Assembly: GCF_000317895.1 (NCBI RefSeq)
Contig: NC_019567.1
Span: 3,844,001 to 3,908,000 of the forward strand
Length of the DNA: 64,000 nt
Reading direction: 5' to 3'
Origin: Bdellovibrio bacteriovorus str. Tiberius
GTDB lineage: Bacteria > Bdellovibrionota > Bdellovibrionia > Bdellovibrionales > Bdellovibrionaceae
Below the pieces are notes generated by a model. That model did no database searches, was not told where the DNA came from, and saw only the letters and a program-made list of their open reading frames with translations. Of the stretch, positions 8,119-50,997 are shown piece after piece (the first letter of the stretch is position 1; each line of letters opens with the position of its first letter). A program made the position numbers and the translations under genes.

Positions 8119-9188
8119 GCTTTCTTTTCTCCTTCGACAATCAGGGCGCTGAGTTCTTCAAGGCCCCCCAGATCGGAAATATCCTTCACCAGATCAGGGA
8201 TGCGGAAGACCCGGGCCTGATTCTTCATGCCCGACTCAAACTGCTGATACAATTGATCCCTCTGATTGTAGTAGGACCTCATCTGTGAATACAACTTCAC
8301 AAGATCCTCATGGCCTTTTCCAGGGTCCTGAGCCGAACGGAGGTCCAGCCAGTACGGGAAGACACGATTTAAAACCACCGTGCCCAGATGGTAGCCGCCT
8401 TTTTTGATTTCTCTTGAGAAGTATTCAGCTTCCTTCAGTTTCGCCTGATCAAAGGCCGTCACCAGACAGAACTGAGTCGTCGGCGCCACCAGCATACGAT
8501 GCACATCGATCGTGCGGGCCTGCAGCTTCCCCTGCCATTGCTCGATATTGACAAAGAAATCACCCAGTTCGCGGATGAAGTTTGACCCCGTCAAAGATTC
8601 CAAAACTTTCAGAACCTGGCGCGTACCGGTCTGAAGCAGGTGACCAAAGAAGCCGCCTTTTTTTCCTTCGGGATCGCGGAACCATTTCGCCACACCTTCG
8701 TTGAAAAGTGCGGAAAGCTTTTGCGGAGCATTCAGGAAATCAATTGCATGCTTCGTCGGTGGCGTATCCAGAACGATCAGATCAAACTGGCCGGATTCAT
8801 AGCAGGAATACAGTTTTTCCAAAGCGGTGAATTCCTGCGAACCACTTAAGTTCGTGGAAAGCTGCTTGTAAAGGCTGTTATTAAAGATCTTTTGAGCTGA
8901 TTCTGTTTTCTTCGCCGCGCGAGCGACAAAATCATCAAAGGTTTTTTTATGATCAATCACCGAGGCATACAGCTCGCCCTTGAAATTCTGCCCCGGAACT
9001 TTGGTGATGTCTTTGGTGCCTTCAATGCCCAGGGTCTGCGCCAGGCGCTTCGCCGGATCGATAGTCAGTACCAACACACGCTTGCCCTCTTTGGCGGCAA
9101 GCACGGCCAAGGAAGCCGCAATCGTGGTTTTACCCACGCCACCACTTCCGACACAGACTAAAACTTTGGTGTCTTTAAACAGGCTCAC
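8115..9188 (-). CDS. ArsA/Get3-like ATPase, first of a pair (no signature lysine)
   Basis: The 357-residue product belongs to the ArsA/Get3 branch of the SIMIBI P-loop NTPases. The P-loop is GSGGVGKTT at residues 14-22. The usual KGG of the deviant Walker A is SGG, so the intermonomer signature lysine is missing. The family motif VLTIDPAKRLAQTLG and the switch-like VLDTPPTKHAIDFL are present. No arsenic genes are nearby, so arsenite efflux is unlikely. It overlaps its partner ATPase (9185) and the TPR lipoprotein by four bases each. A membrane-protein targeting or envelope role is an inference. Confidence 0.88.
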   Translation of the reverse strand: MSLFKDTKVLVCVGSGGVGKTTIAASLAVLAAKEGKRVLVLTIDPAKRLAQTLGIEGTKDITKVPGQNFKGELYASVIDHKKTFDDFVARAAKKTESAQKIFNNSLYKQLSTNLSGSQEFTALEKLYSCYESGQFDLIVLDTPPTKHAIDFLNAPQKLSALFNEGVAKWFRDPEGKKGGFFGHLLQTGTRQVLKVLESLTGSNFIRELGDFFVNIEQWQGKLQARTIDVHRMLVAPTTQFCLVTAFDQAKLKEAEYFSREIKKGGYHLGTVVLNRVFPYWLDLRSAQDPGKGHEDLVKLYSQMRSYYNQRDQLYQQFESGMKNQARVFRIPDLVKDISDLGGLEELSALIVEGEKKA

Positions 9189-10054
9189 TTCAACACCTCC
9201 GCCGTTTTTTCCACCAGAGCCCAGGCGCTGGATTCAAAATACAACGGCACACGGGTGACCTCGGGGCTTAACCCTTGAGCTTGCGCCCACATTTGATTCT
9301 GACGGCGAATATGACCGTCCAGATACTCGGCAAATTTTGAAAGGTCGGAATTTTCAGACTGCACTTCCTGCAAAGTCTGCTCGGACACCGGCGCCTCGAT
9401 CATCTTGTTCATGATCAGTTCAGCCGTGACACCAAATTCGTTTTTCAAGCGAGCGATCAACTCTGAAGCTTCTTTCAGCGGAAGCTCTTCCGGCAAGGTG
9501 ACCACGTGGTATTTGCAGATTTCAGGATTGCGAATATGCGCATCGATACTGCGGCTTTGTTCACCCATGGGACCAAACTGCACGGCCTCGGCCATGCCTT
9601 TTGGAGCTTCCAGCAAAGCAATAAAGTGACCCGTGGCAAACGCATCCACCACAATACAATCAAACGGCAGCGCAGGGCCGTGTTTGCGGGGACCGCTGGT
9701 GACTTTTCCCAGGATCGCCAGTTCCGGCAAGGCAGGAGCCACATTAATGAAGGCCTTCATCACTGCATTTTCGAAGAACAGCTTCGCCAGGCTTTCCACC
9801 TTGATGAAATGACGGGCGTATTCCTGCAAACAGGCTTCGCCGGTCCACAAGGCTAAGGAAAGATTGGGTCTGATTGAAACTGGCTGAAATCCAACTTGGG
9901 GTAAATTAAAGAAATCCTTAAAGAAACTCTGATCTCCAAGTTCGACCAGAAGGGTCTTTTTACCCTCTTGGCTCTTTTTAAGCGCCAGGGCTGCGGCTAA
10001 AACCGACTTCCCCACGCCCCCTTTTCCGGTCACAAAGTGAATCTCTTGCTTCAT
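9185..10054 (-). CDS. ArsA/Get3-like ATPase, second of a pair (canonical KGG P-loop)
   Basis: I start this 289-residue protein at the ATG at 10054, just ahead of the strand that leads into the P-loop; an in-frame ATG at 10105 would add 17 unrelated residues. The P-loop is GKGGVGKSV at residues 10-18 with the signature lysine intact, unlike the partner gene downstream. CIVVDAFATGHFIALLEAP corresponds to the switch region, where the partner has VLDTPPT. The two genes overlap by four bases and probably make a heterodimer. The pairing recalls the two Get3-like ATPases of mycobacteria, from general knowledge. It heads the operon that ends in gshA. Confidence 0.85.
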   Translation of the reverse strand: MKQEIHFVTGKGGVGKSVLAAALALKKSQEGKKTLLVELGDQSFFKDFFNLPQVGFQPVSIRPNLSLALWTGEACLQEYARHFIKVESLAKLFFENAVMKAFINVAPALPELAILGKVTSGPRKHGPALPFDCIVVDAFATGHFIALLEAPKGMAEAVQFGPMGEQSRSIDAHIRNPEICKYHVVTLPEELPLKEASELIARLKNEFGVTAELIMNKMIEAPVSEQTLQEVQSENSDLSKFAEYLDGHIRRQNQMWAQAQGLSPEVTRVPLYFESSAWALVEKTAEVLK

Positions 10055-10182
10055 AGGTTCTAAGAGTGTGGCTGACCTCTGATTTATAGGCATTACGCAT
10101 GGCATTACAGTTGCCTAAAGTCGGTCCGTCTTTTAGTATCCACCAGTTTATAACGCGTTGGCGTAATCTAGGAGAAATAGAC

Positions 10183-36256: not shown

Positions 36257-36332
<76 letters not shown>

Positions 36333-48151: not shown

Positions 48152-49024
48152 ATGGCAATTCTTATTAACAAAAACACAAAAGTAATCTGCCAAGGTTTCA
48201 CTGGTGCTCAAGGTACTTTCCACTCTGAGCAGGCATTGGCATACGGAACTAAAATGGTTGGTGGTGTGACTCCGGGTAAAGGTGGCACAACTCACATCGG
48301 TCTTCCAGTGTTCAACACTGTGAAGGAAGCCAAAGCAGCCACGGGTTGCAACGCTTCCGTGATCTTCGTTCCACCTCCATTCGCAGCTGACTCCATCATG
48401 GAAGCAGTTGATGCGGATCTGGATCTTGTCATCTGTATCACTGAAGGCATTCCAGTTTTGGACATGGTGAAAGTGAAAGAATACATGAAGGGTAAACGCA
48501 CTCGTTTGGTAGGTCCTAACTGCCCGGGCGTTATCACTCCAGGCGAATGCAAAATCGGCATCATGCCAGGCCATATCCACAAAGCAGGTCGTATCGGCGT
48601 TCTTTCCCGTTCCGGCACATTGACTTACGAAGCTGTAGGTCAGTTGACGGCACTTGGTATCGGTCAATCCACTTGCGTGGGTATCGGTGGTGACCCGGTG
48701 AACGGCACAAACTTCATCGACGTTTTGAAATTGTTCAATGAAGATCCAGACACTGACGGCGTTATCATGATCGGTGAAATTGGTGGTACGGCGGAAGAAG
48801 AAGCAGCTGAATACATCAAAGCTCACTTCAAAAAGCCAGTGACGGCGTTCATCGCGGGTGCTGCGGCTCCGGCTGGTAAACGTATGGGTCACGCCGGTGC
48901 GATCATCAGCGGCGGCAAAGGCACAGCGGAAGCGAAGTTCAAAGCGCTTGAAGCTGCTGGTTGCAAGATCTCCCGTTCCCCAGCGGACATGGGTACGACT
49001 ATGCAATCCATGCTGAAAAAGTAG
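48152..49024 (+). CDS. sucD: succinyl-CoA synthetase alpha subunit
   Basis: The 290-residue alpha subunit binds CoA in its N-terminal Rossmann fold ([17 protein letters not shown]). The phosphorylated histidine is in GHAGAII, near residue 249. It forms the enzyme with SucC. A terminator follows. Confidence 0.96.
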
Positions 49025-49050
49025 TTCTAAGTTTTTAGATACAACTTTCA

Positions 49051-49084
49051 AAAACCCACGGCAGAAATGTCGTGGGTTTTTTTG
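49051..49084 (+). terminator. terminator after sucD
   Basis: The stem AAAACCCACG/CGTGGGTTTT is followed by TTTG. Confidence 0.9.
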
Positions 49085-49227
49085 TTTTCCCGGCTGACCA
49101 TTTGCGATCCCTGTCAATTTTCAAGACACCCTGACCCATCCCAAACATCCTCTGATTGATTTCAAGCCCGCAAAGCGGTGGAACACCTCTTGTAACAAGC
49201 TTCGCGTTGATCAATTTAGGAGATTTT

Positions 49228-50997
49228 ATGAAACGTTCTGGTTTGGCTGCATTTATGGCCTTATTGTCGCTGGTTCACAACACGGCTCGCGCCGAAATCA
49301 TCGTCGATTTGCCGTTCCCGGGCGAATTCGAGGGCGATGTCGTCACCACCCCAACGACTCCTCCGGCCCCGCCAGCGGAAGACACGACTCAAACTCAATC
49401 CACAACAACACCGACGGCACCCGCAGCGCCTGTGCAGACCGAATATAAGGGTGAGCTTTCCATCACCTCGATGTCGCGCAAGTCCGGTGGCGCAACTTAT
49501 AAGATTGATCTGCAGCGCTCTGCCGTCCTGAACCGACTGGAACTGGTAGTAGAGGTCAACAAGCTGAAGATCCATTCCGCTTCCCTTATCACCGAACGGG
49601 GTCAGCAGATTTCCGTGCGTGAATTCAAGGACAGCCGCGTGCTTTCCACCTGGGAATCATTGGTGTCAGAAAATCTGAACCTGTCCGACCGTGTGGCTTC
49701 CATCGAACTGGTCGCTGAATCCTATGGCGGTGCCGCGAACATCCGCCTGCGCGCCATCGGTGCAAGCGAAGTACCACGCCTGGCCCTGCAACAGGTGATT
49801 GAGCCTGTTGCAGCAACCCCTGCGGCGCCTCCCGCACCGGGCAATTCGACTCCGGTTCAAATCCAGCCGTCTGCTCCGAACAGCCGTCCTGAGGCTATCG
49901 CCAAAGGCACAAAGATTGTGTATTCCGGATCTTACGTCGGCACCATCGTTCAGATTTTAGGTGGCGGCAAAGTGCGTGTGACTCTCGACGGTTACAGCGG
50001 CACCCACGACATTGACATTCGTGACATTGGCACCCAAACCGCGTGTCTGGATGGCTTGTGCGGCGGGCACAACATTTTGTACTCTGGCAGCTATAGTGGC
50101 GTAATCAAAGAAGTATTCTCGAACAAAAAAGCACGCGTGGTGCTGGATGGTTATTCCGGTTTGCACATCGTAAACTTGAGTGAACTTGCCAAGTCCGTCG
50201 ACTGCCATCAGAACTTCTGCATCAATCGTCAGGCGATCTATAGCAATTCCTACGATGCAACCATCAAAAAACTTTTCACCAATGGCAAAGCTCAGGTGAC
50301 TCTGGCCGGGTATTCCGGAATGCACATCGTAAACCTGTCTGAACTTGCCAATTCAATTCAGTGTTCGCGTGAACTTTGTGTCGGCGATTCTGTGATGTAC
50401 AACAACACCTCTAAAGCCAAGCTTTTGAAGGTTTATTCCAACGGCAAAGTGCAAGTGACCATCGAGGGTTATTCCGGCACTCATATGATCAGTATTTCAG
50501 AAATTTCCCGCCCGACCCGCTGCCTTGAGGGTGTTTGTGCAGGTGATTCCCTGATGTACGACCGCACCATGGAAGCCAAAGTCATTGAAGTCTATAACAA
50601 CAGACAGGCCCTGGTCACGATCGCGGGCTACAATGGCACCCACACGGTGGCGATTAGCTCTTTGAGCAAAAAAATCAACTGTGCCAGCGGCATCTGTGCG
50701 GGAGATCAGTTGATGTATGATTTCACCATGAAGGCCAAGGTCATTAAGGTCTTTAGCAATGGTCAGGCACTTGTCACGATCGAGGGTTATAACGGAACTC
50801 ACACTGTTTCCTTAAGCACCTTGACGAAGGCTGTAACCTGCTCCAAAGGAATTTGCGCTGGTGATCGCATCGTTTACGATCGAACCTACACTGGGAAAGT
50901 GATTTCGGTGTTTGGCAACGGCACCGCTCAAGTCACTTTGAACGGATACTCTGGAACTCACAACGTCCACTTAAGCAGCCTGGTAAAATCAAAATAG
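49228..50997 (+). CDS. secreted protein with seven 53-residue cysteine-containing repeats
   Basis: The 589-residue product starts at an ATG preceded by AGGAGA. It has a signal peptide (about residues 1-22), a Pro/Thr-rich linker and an N-terminal beta domain (about 70-190). From about residue 225 to the end are seven tandem repeats of about 53 residues; each holds a Tyr-rich start, a strand ending in the motif GYSG(T/L/M)H or GYNGTH, and a C-x4-C pair before the next repeat. The seventh lacks the cysteines. Small SH3-like or other beta domains are likely. Function is unknown; surface binding is an inference. Confidence 0.82.
   Translation: MKRSGLAAFMALLSLVHNTARAEIIVDLPFPGEFEGDVVTTPTTPPAPPAEDTTQTQSTTTPTAPAAPVQTEYKGELSITSMSRKSGGATYKIDLQRSAVLNRLELVVEVNKLKIHSASLITERGQQISVREFKDSRVLSTWESLVSENLNLSDRVASIELVAESYGGAANIRLRAIGASEVPRLALQQVIEPVAATPAAPPAPGNSTPVQIQPSAPNSRPEAIAKGTKIVYSGSYVGTIVQILGGGKVRVTLDGYSGTHDIDIRDIGTQTACLDGLCGGHNILYSGSYSGVIKEVFSNKKARVVLDGYSGLHIVNLSELAKSVDCHQNFCINRQAIYSNSYDATIKKLFTNGKAQVTLAGYSGMHIVNLSELANSIQCSRELCVGDSVMYNNTSKAKLLKVYSNGKVQVTIEGYSGTHMISISEISRPTRCLEGVCAGDSLMYDRTMEAKVIEVYNNRQALVTIAGYNGTHTVAISSLSKKINCASGICAGDQLMYDFTMKAKVIKVFSNGQALVTIEGYNGTHTVSLSTLTKAVTCSKGICAGDRIVYDRTYTGKVISVFGNGTAQVTLNGYSGTHNVHLSSLVKSK

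Follow-up and report, generated by a model that had tools for sequence, protein, structure and literature searches.

Secreted bacterial relatives of the chromo and Tudor domains have been described as SH3-fold barrels, nearest to Tudor, that occur in 2 to 6 tandem copies, some with cysteines likely to form disulfides, and that share a polypeptide with peptidase and other extracellular domains (Sci Rep 2018, PMC5906684). In the portions of that paper available to us, the authors suggest that these barrels bind peptides, in peptidoglycan or in the periplasm, propose such domains as forerunners of eukaryotic chromatin readers, and mention the bacterial SH3 cell-wall-binding domains; the name Bdellovibrio does not occur in its main text. 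In Bdellovibrio, proteins with the Pfam domain PF18820 ('Bdellovibrio beta-sandwich', BD_b_sandwich) have appeared in proteomics. According to the available sections of PMC12546842, the 'beta-sandwich domain' proteins Bd1044 and Bd1045 are among 31 entry candidates from empty bdelloplasts, and the BD_b_sandwich protein Bd2715 is higher during growth in prey; 12 of the 31 candidates show no rise at entry in that proteome, Bd1044 and Bd1045 being placed neither way in those sections. For empty-bdelloplast data there is a caution from the authors themselves that part of the predators had broken (Tyson et al. 2024, PMC11003981, in the part available). We analysed a stretch of 64,000 nucleotides of Bdellovibrio bacteriovorus str. 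Tiberius (the window; G000:C1:3844001-3908000, from a genome of 3,988,594 bases) and describe one of its genes, the product of which joins a PF18820 domain to seven tandem repeats predicted to be Tudor-like.

The gene and its domain architecture

The gene occupies positions 49228-50997 of the window on the plus strand, as do all of its features given below, and encodes 589 aa from an ATG at 49228 to a stop codon that ends at 50997. The program-made open reading frame begins 24 codons before this ATG, and a Shine-Dalgarno-like AGGAG lies upstream of it (49218-49222). Besides orthologues, purifying selection speaks for the gene: comparison with two close orthologues, one of them 90 percent identical, gives a dN/dS of 0.08 in both cases (dS 0.66 and 0.94), and the orthologue from kdesi gives 0.18, with dS saturated. 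On one side lies a sucD-like gene (CoA-binding and CoA-ligase domains), followed by a terminator-like hairpin upstream of the AGGAG, and on the other a convergent KhpA/B-type KH gene. Rfam gives a single gathering-level match for the window, the tRNA at 36260-36332, and sub-threshold matches within 49000-49300 fall on or around the hairpin after sucD.

Residues 1-22 (49228-49293) read by eye as a signal peptide, MKRSGLAAFMALLSLVHNTARA, with cleavage before E; the orthologues begin similarly, and the protein is probably secreted. With the secreted bacterial chromo-like/Tudor-like domains it shares a tandem arrangement, here of seven units, and it would also share secretion if the signal peptide read by eye is one. 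An acidic P/T-rich linker with 20 percent Pro (residues 23-66, 49294-49425) leads to the PF18820 domain at residues 68-191 (49429-49800), which the initial annotation had overlooked and which scores 123.8 bits (E 6e-36) against a curated cut-off of 26.1, making the protein a member of this family. A further linker, with 26 percent Pro (residues 193-226, 49804-49905), separates it from the repeats.

The repeat array proved to be as first annotated, namely seven tandem units of about 53 residues. Units start at residues 227, 280, 333, 386, 439, 492 and 545, spaced exactly 53 and abutting without spacers, and identity at lag 53 in this region is 0.50, versus 0.067 in shuffles (maximum 0.132 of 10,000). 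Its other descriptive claims were likewise borne out: the GYxGxH motif is present in 7/7 repeats, C-x4-C pairs occupy six junctions, and DNA identity among units is 44-68 percent, with R5/R6 the closest pair, in line with an array that is diverged and not recent. By periodicity, the units and their linker cysteines are repeat 1 (227-279, Cys273/Cys278; 49906-50064), repeat 2 (280-332, Cys326/Cys331; 50065-50223), repeat 3 (333-385, Cys379/Cys384; 50224-50382), repeat 4 (386-438, Cys432/Cys437; 50383-50541), repeat 5 (439-491, Cys485/Cys490; 50542-50700), repeat 6 (492-544, Cys538/Cys543; 50701-50859) and the C-terminal, cysteine-free repeat 7 (545-589; 50860-50994); the last two were also modelled. 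These 12 cysteines are all that the protein has.

There was no PADLOC match, no match to the protein in the viral contigs searched, and none in phage and plasmid records by tblastn. We rejected as chance an NCBIfam telomere resolvase match (20.1 bits against a cut-off of 800) and PDB protelomerase matches (E 0.065-0.089); a Pfam PRD1 spike match was below threshold (19.1 against 25).

Predicted folds, linker cysteines and the repeated loop

Repeats R6-R7 were modelled from five alignment rows (the window protein and its kdesi orthologue, L114) with a pLDDT of 89.4 and a pTM of 0.72. The first modelled unit has strands at 4-6, 10-17, 22-27, 33-37 and 41-45 plus a short helical turn, and the second is alike. 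In a Foldseek search with R6-R7, KOW, tandem agenet and tudor pairs were among the first matches, the best at E 3.3e-3 and none at or below 0.001. A second aligner, queried with a single unit, gave Z values near the level that it calls common: 9g0a_Z as top row (Z 8.9, 1.6 A, 51 aligned), 5oik_Z of the Pol II-DSIF complex (Z 8.4, 1.2 A, 48 aligned), UHRF1 tudor 3db3 (Z 8.3, 2.0 A, 56 aligned), KOW2-KOW3 of Spt5, 4ytl (Z 8.2, 1.1 A, 47 aligned), and SMN Tudor 4qq6 (Z 7.5, 2.0 A, 50 aligned). The structural matches also include NusG KOW and ssDNA-bound PWWP, and a sequence-profile match to the Tudor chain 4a4f is weak (E 1.1). The model thus predicts that the repeats are KOW/Tudor-type SH3-like barrels, with a five-strand barrel in units 6 and 7, to which units 1-5 align in sequence. 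The earlier idea of a string of small beta domains is therefore supported by prediction, units 6 and 7 being confident five-strand SH3-like barrels without predicted disorder. The remark that the repeat matches no named one holds at the family level, as no Pfam or other characterised repeat family scores above cut-off, and fails at the level of the predicted fold. SH3_15 reaches 17 bits against the window protein, under its cut-off of 24; it matches 9/25 members of our repeat profile A6 (best E 0.0025, 25 of 42 families being listed), and a relative in another genus, L139, passes it (37.6 against 24 bits). Among the 13 Pfam families matched up to E 10 by the window protein, none is a bacterial SH3 cell-wall-binding family; the repeats may still be kin to such domains, since 25 of the 42 families matched with A6 were listed.

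The aromatic cage of Tudor domains appears incomplete in the window protein, leaving a methyl-lysine reading unsupported: Tyr occupies columns 6 and 30 in 7/7 units and column 10 in 4/7, and column 27 is aromatic in 0/7, positions being mapped to SMN by profile alignment, aligned structural ranges and SMN numbering.

The sandwich was modelled, from a two-row alignment, as a jelly roll with a middling pLDDT of 76.4. Its best structural row is PAPP-A (Z 10.3); CBM32 (2v72) aligns with Z 8.9 (3.2 A, 105 aligned), and CBM32/CBM29 rows span Z 7.8-8.9. The match list is mixed, comprising PAPP-A, CBM32, CBM29, CBM86, neuropilin, and capsid and spore-appendage proteins, and the last two kinds score about like the CBMs. 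Because of this mixture, glycan binding is a lead only; on the model, the PF18820 head may bind sugars or a glycan.

The initial annotation took the cysteines to join the domains by disulfides, and here the results point elsewhere. Linkers of 32 non-redundant repeat proteins (n=130) have exactly two Cys in 118 cases, many of them orthologous, none in 12, and one in 0. The paired cysteines are separated by 4 (69 junctions), 5 (13), 6 (35) or 7 (1) residues. Six of the 12 Cys-free junctions are the linkers of L099, and the other six are two orthologous linkers, each found in three proteins; the 12 therefore count as roughly three events. The model places Cys47 and Cys52, five residues apart, on the paired strands of a small hairpin (DSSP 47-48 with 51-52). 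This location, together with the two-or-none pattern, argues for a clip within each linker rather than a bond between domains, and the pair most likely closes such a clip. We also observed a seven-repeat relative without any Cys and without the sandwich (L099:1706-3100, minus strand); in this family the fold would accordingly need no clips.

We then compared repeat columns within and between proteins, using 20 proteins with at least 4 units each, non-redundant at 70 percent. For columns 27-34 (L-x-G-Y-S-G-x-H here), a window noticed before its test, within-minus-between identity is 0.411 versus 0.085 elsewhere, ranking first of 39 contiguous windows. These columns form the beta3-beta4 loop, on the Tudor ligand side. 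The Tudor-cage-equivalent columns 10, 27, 30 and 32, chosen on the Tudor alignment when the column table was already known, give 0.448, a value that 54 of 100,000 random column sets reach. They give 0.347 when the Asp-loop class is left out (12 proteins; 660 of 100,000 random sets) and 0.429 for a set of 9 proteins made non-redundant at 50 percent (230 of 100,000). Tandem duplication alone would raise identity in all columns. Most relatives keep the same version of this presumed binding loop across their own units and differ between paralogues; L083, L020 and L023 are exceptions that vary among their own units. Loop classes in paralogues include GYYD, GYSD/E and DDDDGK. The last takes the place of the window protein's GYSGTH in L011:4460-5923 and in genes like it elsewhere; this Asp-rich loop could bind a cation.

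Family distribution, published proteins and the upstream element

Full-length orthologues are present in three other genomes, at 90 percent identity in G005 and 88 percent in G023 (seven units each) and at 56 percent in kdesi (G015/L114; five units). The window gene and all three adjoin sucD, that is, in 4/24 genomes of the genus, with no copy in the sucD flanks covered (about 1.5 kb) of the other 20; predation as such thus does not require the gene beside sucD. In G023 the KH gene comes next, and it was not found in the stretches of 14 kb (G005) and 10 kb (G015). As a separate observation, the genes found downstream of sucD differ among the 13 loci (within L156-L179) with listed ORFs, and sucD itself is 89-100 percent identical in the 24 genomes.

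The whole protein as query matches 23/24 genus genomes, its own included, and 1/35 others. PF18820 occurs in 25/290 genomes and 6/162 genera of the phylum and in 0/14 control genomes; one genus genome, G003, is unmatched. The genome that we take to be B. exovorus, a species that does not enter prey, has no match to PF18820 or to repeat profile A4. Repeat profile A6 (25 of 40 pairs listed; its selection lacked the first-cluster genes L003, L074 and L075, and L024) matches 66/368 genomes and 37/181 genera of the phylum, so that the repeat is spread more widely than the sandwich; at E 1e-4 it has no match in the genus genomes G003, G007, G012, G016, G017 and G019. Of 20 A6 loci examined, L150 being the one within the genus, 19 yielded a total of 20 repeat ORFs, with 0 sandwiches at E 0.01; Gln_deamidase_2 precedes the repeats in 4/7 of those proteins scanned. 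These protein glutaminase domains followed by repeats belong to other genera of the phylum and lie on minus strands at L138:1982-3658, L141:1979-3412, L137:1764-3095 and L149:1857-3143. The family is found mostly within the genus Bdellovibrio. The 88 non-redundant PF18820 ORFs collected include 27 with repeats, and five further repeat ORFs lack the sandwich. Other architectures were seen at L011:7699-9063 and 9169-10143, where the sandwich accompanies helical SYGS-x-x-YN repeats or a region that is glycine-zipper-like by eye.

The window's own genome has eight PF18820 genes, four of them consecutive at 0.999-1.005 Mb between tatD with a trypsin-family gene and a gap gene. We rejected the idea that the window gene is a recent copy from this cluster, since a sandwich tree of 83 rows (without L003, L074, L075 and L024, and with weak deeper forks) groups it with its three orthologues (100/98), not with L002 of its own genome. 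G005, which we take to be HD100, has tatD followed by a trypsin-family gene and then by two repeat genes, A and B in that order. As tatD is bd1042 (PMC3593177, in the part available), Bd1044 and Bd1045 are most likely repeat genes A and B, two repeat-bearing cluster paralogues; an unnumbered protease gene would make them B and the next, repeat-free gene. Some family locus tags were not found in the main texts of PMC2797640, PMC3627812, PMC12622784 and PMC11003981, nor was the window gene's own orthologue found in the literature; searches for Bdellovibrio with beta-sandwich, Tudor, SH3-like or tandem repeats gave no paper recognised as describing these repeats. The CASP Bdellovibrio targets, in the parts of PMC10792529, PMC8616854 and PMC12750041 available, are other proteins.

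A -24/-12-like promoter element in its loose form, TGGAACACCTCTTGT (49179-49193), ends 34 nt before the ATG and is at the same place in 3/3 orthologues; a pattern of this type with 2 mismatches is expected 1.1 times by chance, so is not rare alone. The own genome contains 18 copies of the pattern GGCACR-N3-YTTGG, versus 15 for a reversed-pattern control. Of these 18 sites, 4 lie 34-45 nt upstream of PF18820 gene starts, two more are 82 and 45 nt before genes that look lipoprotein-like by eye (C1:1497439, minus strand, and C1:3283537), and 12 are inside open frames of at least 120 codons. The element was noted before the dispersed PF18820 genes at G000:C1:999408, 1001014, 1004109 and 2784458. 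Across the family, the strict form stands 34-50 nt before the start in 26/93 genes and the loose form in 34/93 (17/32 repeat genes), versus 0/180 control ORFs of the same loci, a contrast inflated because the patterns were written after members had been seen and orthologues were counted apart; 200 shuffles of the family upstream stretches gave a mean of 0.2 and a maximum of 2 matches. The element resembles a -24/-12 site in which GG, GT or GA replaces GC. The canonical sigma-54 site TGGCACGNNNNTTGC is found 0 times in the own genome, though a sigma-54 gene is present, and we therefore call the element -24/-12-like only; it could represent the sigma-54 site as Bdellovibrio has it. A consensus promoter scan around the gene found 2, versus 1.6 expected.

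Interpretation and comparison with known systems

Our preferred reading, which we hold tentatively, takes the protein for a multivalent binder that is secreted, attaches to cell-envelope material and serves in predation. Export from the cytoplasm would be due to the signal peptide read by eye; a flexible linker would carry the PF18820 jelly roll as a possible glycan binder, and a second one seven Tudor/KOW-type SH3 barrels, with a C-x4-C hairpin clip after six of them to fix the short junction. Seven barrels would offer the same GYxGxH loop seven times, so that weak single contacts could add up on a polymer of repeating units, which may be the stem peptides of peptidoglycan, LPS or another envelope polymer, the prey's or the predator's own. 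With a constant scaffold and a loop that changes from paralogue to paralogue, the family would serve several ligands. Repeat proteins that carry signal peptides are ordinary, whereas a clipped array with mostly one loop per protein is unusual; its link to predation, like any delivery to prey, we infer. Surface binding, as first proposed, would be plausible for the window protein; the published proteomics of two probable paralogues points to prey remains. A bolder version, which we think unlikely, would make the family secreted 'envelope readers' under one promoter type, delivered to prey, with the clipped Tudor-like scaffold in four to seven copies, mostly one pocket per protein, and paralogue-specific pockets reading different envelope chemistries.

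The barrels might instead bind nothing and form a semi-rigid arm, keeping the jelly-roll head at a distance from an anchor, or fill the periplasm of the predator's envelope, a somewhat doubtful alternative with which the short, clipped linkers and the differing unit numbers of orthologues (7, 7, 7, 5), as in many stalks, would agree. A stalk, however, requires no loop that is constant within a protein yet changed between proteins, neither end shows a membrane or wall anchor by eye, and repeats stand without the sandwich in the 20 ORFs of 19 loci, mostly from other genera. Spt5 and NusG KOW and ssDNA-bound PWWP among the matches, with a pI of 8.93 for the repeat region, would suit barrels that bind DNA or RNA released by prey, for example in biofilm or nuclease digestion; the Asp-rich loop class DDDDGK is unsuited to nucleic acid, and we consider this improbable. 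Proteins for self-protection have precedent in the genus Bdellovibrio, and a multigene family with a common upstream element could coat the predator's own wall or block its own secreted enzymes during invasion. Set against this are the window neighbours, sucD and a KH-domain gene rather than an enzyme pair, and the prey-side detection of probable paralogues (PMC12546842, in the sections available), which leave such a role with only a slim chance.

A multivalent envelope binder would bear on the means by which periplasmic predators hold and mark prey of very different kinds, and a dispersed family whose proteins would each repeat a single pocket offers directly testable candidates. Prey that was killed yet left empty has already been reported to contain two of its probable members, in the available part of PMC12546842.

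Each repeat shares a five-strand SH3-like barrel with the KOW domains of Spt5/NusG and the Tudor domains of SMN/UHRF1 (Z 7.3-8.9, near the level that the aligner calls common). KOW and Tudor domains are intracellular and have other ligands, and to our knowledge they have no inter-domain Cys clips. Bacterial SH3 cell-wall-binding domains are secreted, tandem domains of the SH3 fold, accessory to enzymes. Within PF18820, the window protein is a member by score alongside Bd1044, Bd1045 and Bd2715, two of which are probably repeat-bearing paralogues; the sections of PMC12546842 available give these three as a domain name with abundance and do not mention repeats. The nearest likeness is to the domains of PMC5906684 as described in the portions available, with which the window protein has in common tandem copies and, if the signal peptide and the model hold, secretion and a Tudor-like SH3 fold, and from which it differs in its seven copies, a Cys pair at six junctions, the PF18820 head, a cage only partly kept, and a loop that varies by paralogue. 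The clipped multi-copy array would thus extend a kind already in print, the secreted bacterial Tudor/chromo-like repeats, to long arrays with Cys clips.
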